From Tritonibacter multivorans (lineage in GTDB: Bacteria > Pseudomonadota > Alphaproteobacteria > Rhodobacterales > Rhodobacteraceae): DNA of 33,077 nucleotides. Position 1 is the stretch's first letter. The number at the start of each line of letters is the position of its first letter. The notes below the pieces were generated by a model. The model was not told the DNA's origin. It did no database searches and saw only the letters and a list, made by a program, of their open reading frames with translations. Shown in pieces: positions 25,375 to 33,077 of this stretch. The stretch is from the NCBI RefSeq assembly GCF_001458415.1, contig NZ_CYSD01000036.1, forward strand, positions 1 through 33,077, read 5' to 3'. Made by a program: the position numbers and the translations under genes.

Positions 25375-27621
25375 TCAGACGAATTTGATGTGTTTGTTGA
25401 ACGGCATCTCGCGGATGCGCTGGCCGGTGGCAGCAAAGATCGCATTGGCCAGCGCGGGCGCGGCCGGGGGCAGGCCGGGTTCGCCGACGCCGCGGATCTT
25501 GTCGCCATTGGTCAGGGCCTGCACTTCGATTTCAGGGGTCTGGAACAGGCGCATGCCTTCAAAGACATGGTAATTGTCCTGTTGGGCGGCGTGGTTTTCA
25601 TAGGTGGTTTCGCAGTTCATCGCGTGGGCGAGACCAAAGATCACCCCGCCAAAGACCTGCGCCTCGAGGTTCACCGGGTCCAGAACAGTGCCCACATCGA
25701 CGGCGGAATAGACCTTGTCGATCTTGATGCCGCCTTCGGTGTTCGTGACCTCGATCACCTGCGCACAGGGCACGCCGAAGGACATGCAGAAGGCCACGCC
25801 ACGACCACGGTTTTCGCCCATGCTGGGGCCATCCCAGCCGGACATCTCTTTGACCGCTTCCAGCACCTTGCGCGAAGGCTCGTGCATGCACAGGCGAATG
25901 CGTTCGGCCAAAGGGTCCGCGCCTGCAGCGTGGATGAGTTCGTCTAGAAAACTGTCATGTAGGAAGCCATTGCCCGAGGCCCCGACCGACCGCCACGAGG
26001 AGATCGGCACCATATCCGGCGCGCGGTAGCCGGTGACGCGGTAGTTGGGGATTTCGAACGGCTGATCCCAGGAACCGGTGGTAATGGTCGCGTCGGGGCC
26101 GGGCAGCGGGCCCATCAGGCGGCCAAACCACGACGTCATCAGCGAGGATTGCGCCACGGACAGATCAAAGGTTTCGACCTTGCCGTCCTTGACCTGACCG
26201 CGCGCCTTCGCCACCGCCGCAGGGCGGGGGTAGTCGTGGGTCATGTCTTCTTCGCGGGACCACGTCAGTTTGACCGGCGTGCCTTTGACGGCCATTGCCA
26301 GTTCGACCGCTTGCTGGACATGGGTGTCCTCCAGCTTGTGACCAAAGCTGCCGCCCATGGGCAGCACGTAGACATAGACCTGATCACGCTCCAGCCCCGT
26401 AATGTCGGCGGCGTGGTTGCGCACAAACAGCGGGATCTGGGTGCCGGTCCAGATATGGCAGGCGTCATCGGTGACCTGCACAATGGCGTTCATCGGTTCC
26501 ATCGGCGCATGGGCGACGAAGGGGATGCGGTAGTCCACCTCGATCACATCACCCGCCTCCAATGCGGCGTCCACATCGCCGTCATTGCGCTGACGATGGT
26601 CAAAGCGGTCCTCATTGTCGACGGTGGCTTCGAGTTCGGCAAAGATTTCTTCGGTGGTGGCCGGGTAGTTCGGCGCGCCCCATTCAATTTCCAGCGCCTC
26701 TGCCGCGCGGAAGGCGTACCAGGTGTTGTCGGCAATCACACCGATGCCGTGGCTGATGGGCACGATCTGCTGCACGCCACGCAAGGATCTGGCGGCGCTG
26801 TCGTCGTAGGACAGCACATCGCCACCAATGCCGGGGTTGGCGCGCACGGTGGCATAGACCATGCCGTCCACCGCCATATCGATGCCATAGACGGTCTGGC
26901 CCGTGACCTTGTCGGCCATGTCCAGACGGTCCATTTTCTTGCCCAGAAGCTTCCATTCCGTCTCGGGGCGCAGTTTGACGTCGGTTACCGGGTCCATCTT
27001 GGCGGCGTCTGCGGCCAGATCGGTATAGGCGATGGTGGAGCCATCGGGCAGCACCACATGGCCATCGGCGGTCTGTAGCGAGGCGCGCGCAATGCCGGTG
27101 CGCTGGGCGGCGGCCTGTTTCAGGGTTTCGCGCGCAACAGCACCCGCGAGGCGCATTTTGACAAAGCCGTCCTTCACCGTGGATGATCCGCCGGTCATCT
27201 GCATTTCCATCAGCTTGGCAGGGATGAACATCATGCCGCGCACGCGCTCTGCGATCCAGCTTTCGTCATAGGCGGGGAAAGGCGCGCCTTCGTCCATGAC
27301 CGCGCCATTATAGTAGGCGGGGCCGGGCATGCCGGGGGTGAGGGTGACCTTGGTCGGATCCACATCCAGTTCCTCGGCGATCATCATCGCTTGGATGGAA
27401 TAAGACCCCTGACCCTTGTCCGCGCGCGGCGTGATCAGGGTGATGCCGGTTTGGTCGATTTTGACATAAGGGGTAATGGCGGCTTCGCCATCCTTGAGAT
27501 CATCCAGCAGCGGGTTCGGGATCGCTTTGTTGACGTAATAGGCGCCAAAGGCCACGCCACCGACAATGGCAGCAGACCCGATCAGGAAGGTGCGGCGGGC
27601 AATTTTTCCGATGCGGCTCAT
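25375..27621 (-). CDS. Molybdopterin-binding subunit, xanthine dehydrogenase family (isoquinoline oxidoreductase beta-like)
   Basis: A 748-residue subunit with a Tat signal (ARRTFLIGSAAIVGGVAFGAYY), so the enzyme is exported folded. The body has the two-part molybdopterin cytosine dinucleotide domain of the xanthine oxidase family, for example DMAVDGMVYATVRANPGIGG, then PMGGSFGHKLEDTHVQQAVEL and WRSVGASGNGFLHDSFLDEL. The C-terminal GVGEPGLPPAAPALANAIFA probably carries the active-site glutamate. Close relatives are the IorB type, oxidising isoquinoline, nicotinate or aldehydes; the substrate here is unknown. It starts 2 bases after the 2Fe-2S gene stop. No FAD subunit is present, which fits electron transfer to the adjacent cytochrome c. 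Confidence 0.9.
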   Translation of the reverse strand: MSRIGKIARRTFLIGSAAIVGGVAFGAYYVNKAIPNPLLDDLKDGEAAITPYVKIDQTGITLITPRADKGQGSYSIQAMMIAEELDVDPTKVTLTPGMPGPAYYNGAVMDEGAPFPAYDESWIAERVRGMMFIPAKLMEMQMTGGSSTVKDGFVKMRLAGAVARETLKQAAAQRTGIARASLQTADGHVVLPDGSTIAYTDLAADAAKMDPVTDVKLRPETEWKLLGKKMDRLDMADKVTGQTVYGIDMAVDGMVYATVRANPGIGGDVLSYDDSAARSLRGVQQIVPISHGIGVIADNTWYAFRAAEALEIEWGAPNYPATTEEIFAELEATVDNEDRFDHRQRNDGDVDAALEAGDVIEVDYRIPFVAHAPMEPMNAIVQVTDDACHIWTGTQIPLFVRNHAADITGLERDQVYVYVLPMGGSFGHKLEDTHVQQAVELAMAVKGTPVKLTWSREEDMTHDYPRPAAVAKARGQVKDGKVETFDLSVAQSSLMTSWFGRLMGPLPGPDATITTGSWDQPFEIPNYRVTGYRAPDMVPISSWRSVGASGNGFLHDSFLDELIHAAGADPLAERIRLCMHEPSRKVLEAVKEMSGWDGPSMGENRGRGVAFCMSFGVPCAQVIEVTNTEGGIKIDKVYSAVDVGTVLDPVNLEAQVFGGVIFGLAHAMNCETTYENHAAQQDNYHVFEGMRLFQTPEIEVQALTNGDKIRGVGEPGLPPAAPALANAIFAATGQRIREMPFNKHIKFV

Positions 27622-27623
27622 GA

Positions 27624-28085
27624 TTATGCCCCCTCGTTCAGCTTGGCAGCCGCGGCTTTGACAGCGGCGCGAATGCGCGGGTAGGTGCCACAGCGGCAGA
27701 GGTTGGCAGACATGACCTGATCGATCTGCGCGTCCGTCGGATCAGAGTTCAGATCAAGGAAAGAGGCCGCCGCCATGATCTGGCCGGACTGGCAATAGCC
27801 GCATTGGGCCACCTGATGGTCGAGCCAGGCTTCCTGGACCGCATGCAGGGTTTCTGCGTTCGACAGCCCTTCGACTGTGGTCACCTCACCCTCCAGCGCG
27901 CTGATTGGCAGTTGGCACGAACGCACGGCCGCGCCGTCCACATGTACGGTGCAGGCGCCGCACTGGGCGATGCCACAGCCGTATTTCACGCCGGTGATCC
28001 CCAAAGTGTCGCGCAACACCCACAAAAGCGGCATGTCGGGATCGACATCCACCTCGTGTTCGGTTCCGTTTACGGTCAATTTCAT
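27624..28085 (-). CDS. 2Fe-2S subunit of the molybdo-hydroxylase (IorA-like)
   Basis: A 153-residue protein with a plant-type 2Fe-2S cluster (C37, C42, C45 and C57 in the [17 protein letters not shown] region) and a second 2Fe-2S site (C95 and C98 in CGYCQSG; C130 and C132 in CRCGTY). This is the standard small subunit of the xanthine oxidase family. It is the first gene of the operon that continues with the molybdopterin subunit and the cytochrome. It has no signal peptide and is presumably carried across the membrane with the Tat-bearing partner. Confidence 0.93.
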
Positions 28086-30699: not shown

Positions 30700-30775
30700 G
30701 CCCCTATAGCTCAGCTGGTAGAGCAACTGATTTGTAATCAGTAGGTCCGCGGTTCGAGTCCGTGTGGGGGCACCA
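30700..30775 (+). tRNA. tRNA-Thr (anticodon UGU)
   Basis: A 76-base cloverleaf with the CCA encoded. The acceptor stem GCCCCTA pairs with TGGGGGC (one G-U pair), with discriminator A. The D arm is GCTCAGCTGGTAGAGC. The anticodon arm ACTGA-TTTGTAA-TCAGT shows anticodon TGT, reading ACA threonine codons. The T arm contains GGTTCGAGTCC. Its last 16 bases (30760-30775) are the start of an 87-bp inverted repeat that bounds the recombinase element immediately downstream. Confidence 0.97.
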
Positions 30776-30846
30776 ATCATTCCGCTAAATCATTGAAACG
30801 CATCAGCTTTTGGTCGATCCAAGGCGAGGCGTAGTACATTTTGGCG
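30760..30846 (+). repeat. Left copy of the 87-bp perfect inverted repeat
   Basis: These 87 bases are, base for base, the reverse complement of 32529-32615. The outer 16 bases are the 3' end of tRNA-Thr. The inner end includes the TTG start and second codon of the recombinase gene. A short direct repeat GTACATTT occurs at 30834 and 30846, the second crossing the inner repeat edge; these could be recombinase arm sites. Confidence 0.97.
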
Positions 30847-32013
30847 TACATTTCCGGCACCTTCCTCTTCAAGAAAGAGGGCATTTTCTACTTTCACCGT
30901 CGAGTCCCTGTGGATCTGCGGCAGCATTACTCATCACCTCGGATCGCCTACTCGCTTAGGACCCGATCTCGCAATGTGGCTCTGGCCCGTGCAAACGCTG
31001 CTGCTGTGAAGTTGGATGAGTATTGGTTTCACCTTCGATCTCAAGACGTGGAGCTACCGGGTAAGCATCTCCTACGCCATGGTCTGTCTCGACCAGCGGG
31101 GGAAGATGCCGAGTGTGTCAACAACGCCGCTCTAGCGCTGTCTGAGGCTGTGTTGACGTATATCCGGCTCAAGGGACAAGGGCGTTCTAAGACCTTTGAG
31201 CGGGCCGCACATCGCGCCTGTGGCTATGTCATAGATGTGTGTGGCGATAAGCCGTTGCCTGCGTACACCAAAGCGGATGCCAATGCCTTTCGTGACGCCC
31301 TGATTGAACGAGGACTCGCGGGCAGCTCGATCACCCGGATTTTCGGTACTGTGCGGGCGGTGTTCAATTTTGCCGTGGCAGAAGAAGGGCTTGAGGTCAC
31401 TTCACCCTTCGCGAACGTTTACTACGACCGCAATGCCGGTGTGTCCGAACGCCTGTCGATCCCCGTGGGAGACATTCGTGAGGTTCAAAAACAATGCCGT
31501 GAGCTGGACGACGAAATGCGCTGGCTGGTGGCCTTGGTCGCCGATACGGGGATGCGTATTGGCGAGGCCGCCGGCCTGCTACGAGAAGACATCCAACGCG
31601 ATACAGACGGGAATTGGTCGGTCCGGATCACACCGCACCCGTGGCGAACGCTGAAGACAGACGGCAGCAAGCGCGTGGTTCCCTTAGTTGGATCAGCCCA
31701 GTGGGCGGCTGAAAGGATCCAAGCCCAAGCTAGTGACAGCCGGTACGCCTTTCCGCGCTACAACGTCACGGACAAGACCAACGCCAATTCGGCAAGCGCT
31801 GGGCTGAACAAGTGGCTGAAAGCCCATGCGCCAGAGGGGGCGACGATGCACGGGTTCCGCCACGCCATGCGTGATCGCCTAAGGGCAGTGGAATGCCCCG
31901 CTGATATTGCCGATCAGATCGGGGGCTGGCAGACTGAGGGAGTGGGGCAAGGTTACGGCGACGGGTACCCTCTTAAGGTACTAGCAAAGTGGATGTGCCG
32001 TGCCACTCAATAG
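30841..32013 (+). CDS. int: Tyrosine recombinase / integrase
   Basis: A 390-residue site-specific recombinase. The N-terminus (FKKEGIFYFHRRVPVDLRQHY) matches the short arm-binding-like domain (DUF6538 type) common in alphaproteobacterial integrases. A SAM-like core-binding domain follows (about 95-185), then the catalytic domain. Catalytic residues are R239 (TGMRIGEA), K277 (DGSKRVV), H337 and R340 (HGFR), W363 (GGWQ) and Y372 (GQGYGDGY), so the enzyme looks intact. The start must be TTG 30841 or later, because an in-frame TAG lies at 30832. It begins 65 bases after the tRNA, inside the left inverted repeat. Confidence 0.93.
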   Translation: MAYISGTFLFKKEGIFYFHRRVPVDLRQHYSSPRIAYSLRTRSRNVALARANAAAVKLDEYWFHLRSQDVELPGKHLLRHGLSRPAGEDAECVNNAALALSEAVLTYIRLKGQGRSKTFERAAHRACGYVIDVCGDKPLPAYTKADANAFRDALIERGLAGSSITRIFGTVRAVFNFAVAEEGLEVTSPFANVYYDRNAGVSERLSIPVGDIREVQKQCRELDDEMRWLVALVADTGMRIGEAAGLLREDIQRDTDGNWSVRITPHPWRTLKTDGSKRVVPLVGSAQWAAERIQAQASDSRYAFPRYNVTDKTNANSASAGLNKWLKAHAPEGATMHGFRHAMRDRLRAVECPADIADQIGGWQTEGVGQGYGDGYPLKVLAKWMCRATQ

Positions 32014-32116
32014 GCCTAAAAAAGGCCCCAGAAAAGGCCTTAAGTACTTGATTTGACTCAACAAAAAGAATCGCCATAGGTTCATTCCGCGACTATTAAT
32101 TGGTTAGGAGAAGCAC

Positions 32117-32527
32117 ATGGCGAATTTCTCGCAGTACGCCCCGATCTTTTCACTCTATTGGCTCCATTTGGAGAGTCATTGGGATCCCATGGTCGAGGGT
32201 TACATCGGCATAACGAGGACAGAGGTAAAACAGAGGTTCTCTTCTCATAGATCAGGCTGGACCACTCCCTCACTAGCTTCAGCGTTCGAAGCTGATTTGA
32301 CTGCAGTGCGTTGTACAGTGCTATATGATGAACTTCCCGAAGTGGCTGCTCGGGCCTTGGAGCAAGTGTATCGCCCCATCAATAACATTGGCTGGAACCG
32401 GGACCCGGGAGGCCGTGGGATCCGGAACAGGAAGCAAATTTGGTGGGTAACCCCGAATGGCGTTAGGCTTTACAAGGACACGCCTAGGCCCGTGGACAAA
32501 CCGGTAAAAAAGAAAGCGAAGGCTTAA
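32117..32527 (+). CDS. GIY-YIG nuclease superfamily protein
   Basis: A 136-residue protein. FSLYWLHL (11-18) and EGYIGIT (27-33) fit the two strands of the GIY-YIG motif, with RFSSHRSG (40-47) supplying the conserved arginine and histidine region. The later LEQVYRPINNIGWNRDPGG (81-99) resembles the glutamate-containing part of phage-type GIY-YIG proteins. A basic tail (PVKKKAKA) could bind DNA. AGGAG 7-8 bases before the ATG supports the start. The stop lies 1 base before the right inverted repeat, so the gene fills the element exactly. It may nick or cut DNA for element mobility or for homing (inference). Confidence 0.78.
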   Translation: MANFSQYAPIFSLYWLHLESHWDPMVEGYIGITRTEVKQRFSSHRSGWTTPSLASAFEADLTAVRCTVLYDELPEVAARALEQVYRPINNIGWNRDPGGRGIRNRKQIWWVTPNGVRLYKDTPRPVDKPVKKKAKA

Positions 32528-32528
32528 G

Positions 32529-32615
32529 CGCCAAAATGTACTACGCCTCGCCTTGGATCGACCAAAAGCTGATGCGTTTCAATGATTTAGCGGAATGATT
32601 GGTGCCCCCACACGG
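32529..32615 (-). repeat. Right copy of the 87-bp perfect inverted repeat
   Basis: The exact reverse complement of 30760-30846. It includes the tRNA-Thr 3' end sequence at its outer edge (32600-32615) in reverse orientation, but no tRNA body follows beyond it, so this is not a second tRNA gene. Confidence 0.97.
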
Positions 32616-33077
32616 TTTGAGGACGTGTTTGATCGGGGCTGCGATTTGGTTGCATTCCCGTTGCAGGCACCGTCTCAGCAGCTTGCATCAGCAAAACAAG
32701 GCCTAGCAGCCCTGTGCTGTCGCGGTCAACAGGCGCAGATTGTACAACGGTATGTACAACGGCCCGGGCGTAACGGCTTGCCGCGTCGATCACGGAGATT
32801 GGCGATCCCCCGGGGCAGGTGCCACCCCACCCCCTAGGGATACCGTATATGGCCCCGCCCCGAGATTGGGGTTTTCAACTCGTCAACATAGCTCAGCTCT
32901 GTGTTGGCTGGTGACCTCGGGTGCTTGGTCTCGCTGCGTGCGGCGTTGACGACTGCCGGAGAGTCAGTGGGTCGCAGTCGCATGCACGTGTCATGACCCG
33001 CGTGGAGATCGGTTGATGCCAGCGTTTTCCGGCTTGGCTATGCGACCGCACTTCAGCGAGGGAGTGGGATACACTCT
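32616..33077. other. No convincing gene beyond the element
   Basis: About 460 bases with only short frames that lack family features or ribosome sites. Visible items are a direct repeat TGTACAACGG at 32741 and 32753 (2-base spacer), and a weak CCCC-GAGATT-GGGG-TTTT hairpin at 32858-32875. The sequence does not look like the gene-dense chromosome to the left and may be a further mobile region or the start of another island. Confidence 0.5.

Follow-up and report, generated by a model that had tools for sequence, protein, structure and literature searches.

Integrative elements are normally described with one attP, and P4-type elements carry one attP. Tycheposons, reportedly described by Hackl et al. 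in 2023, are said to be marine tRNA-linked integrative elements with a tyrosine recombinase; we know of no inverted attachment pair in them, and they are set apart here by that description rather than by sequence. Paired inverted sites are described for the yeast 2-micron system, in which, according to the available part of the source, Flp acts on sites in 599-bp inverted repeats to give equal amounts of two isomers, and the inversion can start double rolling circle replication (PMC3147054). The tRNA-targeting integrase of Thermococcus pTN3 is described, in the available part of its source, as able to flip in vitro a DNA segment bounded by inverted att sites (PMC5495485).

The window analyzed in this study, i.e., the whole stretch of 33,077 nucleotides of Tritonibacter multivorans DNA on contig C36, ends with a tRNA-Thr gene, a tyrosine recombinase gene (int), and a cargo ORF (Table 1). 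The 87-bp inverted repeats that had been described as perfect are so: direct comparison found the two arms 100% complementary, with 1682 nt between them, which is a match far beyond chance. Arm 1 takes in the last 16 bp of the tRNA gene and extends two codons into int, and the second GTACATTT copy at the start of int lies mostly beyond it. The int ORF matches DUF6538 (E 9.8e-19) and Phage_integrase (E 2.4e-9) in Pfam and an integrase in PHROGs (E 2.8e-35), in agreement with the original prediction of a tyrosine recombinase. The GIY-YIG-like protein predicted beside it is only weakly supported by a single sub-threshold Pfam match (E 0.1), together with motifs that we take to be those of GIY-YIG proteins. 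No NCBIfam or PHROGs family matched this 136-aa ORF, and a protein search with it returned only the ORF itself. Elsewhere in the window (25375-28085, minus strand), a molybdopterin-binding oxidoreductase large subunit adjoins its 2Fe-2S subunit.

Table 1. Features at the right end of the window (positions refer to the window unless a contig is named; attachment sites are assigned by comparison)
Feature	Position	Strand	Basis or remark
tRNA-Thr(TGT), integration target	30700..30775	+	ARAGORN, Rfam
attL core CCGTGTGGGGGCACCA	30760..30775	+	same 16 bp at inner site and C39:939-954
Inverted repeat arm 1 (core + L arm)	30760..30846	+	
GTACATTT / GTACATTT pair, 12-bp spacing, candidate arm-type integrase sites	30834..30853	+	
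Tyrosine recombinase (int), 390 aa	30841..32013	+	Pfam
GIY-YIG-like cargo ORF, 136 aa	32117..32527	+	weakly supported label
Inverted repeat arm 2 (L arm + core of second, inverted attachment site, site b)	32529..32615	-	
Inner core, reverse complement of attL core	32600..32615	-	direct comparison
R arm copy R'	32616..33077, on to C36:33149	-	inverted duplicate of the element's far end (C39)
Candidate R-arm integrase sites, GTACA pair, 12-bp spacing	32740..32762	-	

The window holds the left end of a tRNA-integrating element of about 7.5 kb that is spread over contigs C36, C22, and C39. Its layout is tRNA core - L - int - cargo - L' - core - R' - body - R - core - chromosome, and the length summed from the contig pieces is 7,478 bp, with 172 bp of R' known only from the other copy. 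Positions 32600-33149 of C36 are the reverse complement of positions 405-954 of C39 (550 bp, one N). Read forward, C39 passes from the element interior to the core at 939-954 and then to chromosome with a MarR gene; because this core precedes the chromosome, the far end bears an ordinary direct repeat of the tRNA tail. Direct 16-bp core repeats are thus found at both element ends (30760-30775 and C39:939-954), one of them being the 3' end of the tRNA. The two ends of C22 (4,200 bp) are mutually inverted copies of each other (235 bp at 100%), and both match the start of C39; because these ends are alike, the body of this strain could join C36 and C39 in either orientation. A second inverted repeat, 957 bp long in this genome, links the inner site to the far end of the element. 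C22 encodes a Prim-Pol/D5 protein of 732 aa up to the contig end, which belongs to the P4-family primases (TIGR01613, 277.7 bits against a cutoff of 108.7; Pfam PF08706, D5_N, and PF09250, Prim-Pol) and whose C-terminal part is also present at the start of C39.

The original prediction had treated the two genes between the repeats as the element, with inverted att repeats in place of direct ones. The inverted pair is real, but ordinary direct repeats are present too, and the mobile unit is the element of about 7.5 kb with direct cores at both ends, not the enclosed 1.86 kb. A stand-alone two-gene element of 1.86 kb is ruled out by the right end with its direct core on C39.

When both chromosome flanks were compared by blastn with 18 relative loci in search of an empty site, the right flank matched none and the left flank beyond the tRNA matched one (L008); a genus search with the right flank gave no clean empty site. 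Beyond attR, Ruegeria sp. TM1040 carries a piece of another tyrosine integrase gene (L041:3077-3937; Arm-DNA-bind_3, Phage_int_M), and the DNA past attR on C39 (L026, about 988-1175) is 70% similar to the same place in TM1040. This likeness suggests that tandem accretion may have occurred at the same tRNA tails. The C39 ORF beyond attR had no Pfam match.

A survey of related genomes for the same layout, which the original prediction had proposed, comprised 81 loci, i.e., 79 kept from species genomes (drawn from the best 80 of 112 confirmed matches) and 2 viral contigs. Self-comparison identified inverted arms around the integrase in 67 of the 81, with a median length of 85 and an identity of 100% in 43 loci and at least 98% in 54; the arms of L115 and L119, also among the 67, are about 82% identical. 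A tRNA gene adjoins 58 of these 67 loci, and the tRNA located upstream in 57 is Thr (18), Leu (18), Phe (13), Arg (4), Ser (3), or Gly (1). At one locus (L152, in G276), an apparent 3' part of tRNA-Phe stands outside the left end with no 5' part, and no tRNA was called there. Among the 14 loci with no inverted repeat, in seven the flank or the match is too short for a decision (L044, L083, L086, L092, L100, L108, and L122), and seven have no inverted repeat around int despite their flank (L065, L074, L075, L102, L103, L118, and L120), L074 having merely 23 bp with 2 mismatches.

The integrase of TM1040 is 66% identical to that of the window and lies at tRNA-Phe between perfect 85-bp inverted repeats, and a Chthonobacter locus (Hyphomicrobiales; L110) has a perfect 88-bp repeat. 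The same layout is found on long records, namely those of TM1040 (821,788 bp), G121 (3,288,122 bp), and G276 (4,595,413 bp). The window's contig C36 (33,149 bp) ends 534 bp past the repeat, in sequence that recurs on C39, and this position would suit an assembly or amplification artefact at a contig end; given the same layout on long contigs and in 67 of the 81 loci, such an artefact is scarcely credible, and a contig-end origin is ruled out by the long-contig genomes and the survey. Relatives with a single repeat copy had been named beforehand as the sign of an artefact; 67 of the 81 loci have both.

The integrase occurs at E≤1e-80 in 24 of 394 sampled genomes of the window's family (its own included), with some copies broken or partial, and at E≤1e-30 in 3 of 101 relatives. 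Phage records gave no match to the element, and the sole match among plasmid records was TM1040. Assemblies often break beside the integrase because of the inverted-repeat layout; at 30 of the 67 loci, the sequence stops no more than 140 bp from arm 2. The best 120 of 1898 matches in a protein search included 119 with a known contig size, 36 of which lie on contigs between 1210 and 1250 bp long, most often 1233 (12) or 1236 (6) bp, and sizes predicted from the surveyed loci, assuming a stop in both arms with 31-base words, have the same two modes. The fragment with the window's integrase (P0002) lies on a 1742-bp contig, equal to the predicted 1682+60; a 69%-identical match (P0019) has a 1742-bp contig by coincidence.

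Comparison of the elements identifies the downstream arm as an additional attachment site, inverted relative to the first. In 9 of 11 aligned elements and in the window's genome, attL, the inner site, and attR share one core; in G105 and G114e it is absent at the far end, and these elements look worn. The median identity of the arms is 100% within an element (n = 67) and 56.5% between elements (2211 pairs). An 8-bp motif pair is present at the start of int in 54 of the 67 loci, spaced by 12 bp in 53, and in 50 of the 54 the second motif copy extends past the end of the repeat (38 of 54 under the stricter rule that the repeat stop strictly between the copies). At 20 of 27 testable loci, the same pair recurs within the R arm at 89-116 bp from the core, against 0.24 expected from shuffles. 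The window is outside the 20 loci within the R-motif match limit and has a GTACA pair with 12-bp spacing on both sides. These 12-bp-spaced pairs resemble arm-type integrase sites. Both attachment sites read R arm - core - L arm, and the inner one has no complete second L-arm copy. That the core and motifs of the inner site are kept across lineages, with short arms alike within each element, suggests that it is used as a site. At one locus (L089:1387-1500), a complete tRNA-Leu is located between the L arm and an R-arm-like motif, and the attachment region there seems to include the whole tRNA gene.

Twenty-five elements, which were chosen for long downstream sequence rather than at random, were traced about 7 kb or more past int. 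A second inverted repeat of 233-3183 bp was observed in 12 of them: G276 (3183 bp, 100%), G103 (Ruegeria HKCCA6707; 2316 bp, 99.96%, running to the contig end), TM1040 (1148 bp, 100%), G101 (Leisingera aquimarina; 1053 bp, 98.1%), L045 (765 bp, 96.9%), G121a, b, and c (686-767 bp, 95.3-98.3%), G114f (745 bp, 99.1%), G114b (438 bp, 99.8%), G114e (347 bp, 93.7%), and G105 (233 bp, 95.7%). It is absent in the other 13, i.e., G104, G107, G110, and G113a (each at least 38 kb) and G111, G113b, G114a, G114c, G114d, L089, L121, L068, and G411; G114c and G411 have no first repeat either.

The single contig of G121 carries two elements, both at tRNA-Ser genes, that align in the same direction across the tRNA, the integrase, and R' (89.8%) but have 5.09 kb of body inverted (89.6%), bounded by the ends of the long repeat. 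Together with G121a and G114f, these make four homologous elements with a body orientation of 2:2, and int faces away from the tRNA in all four. A helicase search in the genus of G121 matched 3 of 20 genomes, and one more near-full copy (G481:C4) is at a contig start. These comparisons show body inversion between relatives, which agrees with the original expectation that inversion is part of the biology. The segment expected to invert was the enclosed 1.68 kb; the int segment is instead in one orientation, facing away from the tRNA in 57 of 58 tRNA-anchored loci, and the flipped part is the remainder of the element. At the one other locus (L089), an R-arm-like motif upstream of the tRNA makes the direction ambiguous.

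The main rival explanation for the inversion itself is homologous recombination by RecA between the long R arms. Under it, the inner site would be an inherited duplication kept alike by gene conversion, Int would only integrate and excise at the outer cores, and there would be no amplification. R arms of hundreds of bp at 95-100% identity are good recombination substrates, and only the body between the long arms has been seen inverted, never int between its arms of about 85 bp. We nevertheless consider this explanation rather unlikely, since the core and arm-type motifs of the inner site are kept across distant lineages and the short arms are identical within each element although the elements differ. 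The int cassette might also be a switch, in which a flip between attL and site b would place int under the tRNA promoter or an R' promoter and so set the integrated or excising state. The geometry of the cassette permits such an inversion, and the int of ICEKp1 offers a precedent, being read, according to the available part of the source, from the tRNA promoter if integrated and from a promoter at the 3' end if excised (PMC13023037). The nearly constant direction of int, with L089 as the ambiguous case, makes a switch improbable.

The DNA between int and arm 2 varies, with at least 400 bp of varied cargo at eighteen loci (within L043-L119); examples inside the repeats are an IS3-like transposase (L045) and a hemerythrin gene (G121a). 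Differing cargo at this position, along with a few pairs of similar int genes that have no R similarity (L084/L085 and L059/L062), would be expected if the inverted sites served cassette exchange, i.e., swapping of int and cargo between elements at different tRNAs. However, several pairs with similar int located at different tRNA genes (L093/L094 and L050/L061) also have a conserved core-proximal R arm, which weakens this explanation and leaves it very improbable. L093 and L094 occur in one Marivivens donghaensis genome, with int genes 94% identical and R arms 97% identical (102 bp); they lie at different tRNA-Thr genes and have different cores, each matching its own tRNA. In this pair, the core changed and both arms stayed.

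The bodies of TM1040, G101, and G103 contain type I restriction-modification genes, that of G103 also a CAP12/Pycsar-type TIR protein, and the G121 bodies TPR/sulfotransferase proteins. In three G121 loci (L148, L150, and L151), the TPR proteins have tandem repeats of roughly 102 bp whose number varies between element copies, and one of these proteins has a sulfotransferase domain. Family searches identified replication proteins in the window's element, G114b, and G121c, the last being common by DNA to G121a, G121b, and G114f; no family matched the large ORFs suspected to be replicative in TM1040, G101, and G276.

We favor, with a probability of roughly 45%, a replicating circle with two inverted attP sites, 2-micron-like inversion, and integration via one complete site. 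In the circular form, int would be flanked by the two sites, each reading R arm - 16-bp core - L arm. Site a, at the 5' end of int, would be split into attL and attR on integration, leaving site b within the element as the inverted repeat. Flp-like recombination of sites a and b in the circle would flip the remainder of the element with respect to int, and this inversion, combined with the element's own replication protein, could produce copy-number amplification by double rolling circle replication. The second L-arm repeat lies in the int gene and is incomplete in site b; integration would thus proceed through site a only, and int would therefore always face away from the tRNA, with the body either way. 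We infer that the element has a circular replicating stage, that Int instead of homologous recombination drives the inversion, and that amplification is the purpose of the inversion. Several observations count against this 2-micron-like scheme: the window is outside the 20 loci within the R-motif match limit, the second repeat is missing from 13 of 25 elements and the first, despite enough flank, from 7 of 81 loci, and the replication proteins of G009, G101, and G276 are unassigned.

More tentatively, the loci may constitute a widespread bacterial family with a Flp/FRT-like inverted attP pair, inversion in replication, and double-rolling-circle amplification. Such a family would be the prokaryotic analogue of the 2-micron system, in which a tRNA integrase is combined with a P4-type replication module. 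The individual components (tyrosine integrase, tRNA site, and P4 primase) are of known kinds; the conserved inverted second attP and the nested repeats are new. The original prediction had matched the locus to no described class, and none was matched here either; searches of open-licence PubMed Central papers yielded no account of comparable elements. Elements of this family, which is common in Rhodobacterales and extends to Hyphomicrobiales, would bring inversion into the cycle of integration and excision and would offer a bacterial system for testing the amplification logic of the 2-micron system. Amplification, if it does occur, would represent a replication strategy new to bacterial elements.

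Among known systems, the pTN3 integrase resembles that of the present elements in being a tRNA-targeting tyrosine recombinase with inverted att sites; in the available part of its description, however, the inverted sites are those of a test plasmid or chromosomal repeats, not a built-in inverted attP pair (PMC5495485). With P4-type and other tRNA-integrating islands, the elements share an int that faces away from the tRNA, a tRNA-tail core at both ends, and, in the window's element, a P4-family primase, and they differ from the P4 type in the second inverted attachment site and the nested inverted repeats. The 2-micron system, as far as the available text describes it, combines a tyrosine recombinase, two sites in inverted repeats, two isomers, and a replicating circle (PMC3147054). 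The present elements differ in being bacterial, in integrating at tRNA genes with attL and attR, and in having attP-like sites with arm motifs, and their circle and its amplification are predicted. As in the 2-micron system, the integrated forms have two inverted sites in inverted repeats (12 of the 25 elements traced have the second repeat), and both body isomers occur, here between homologous elements (2:2) rather than in one culture.
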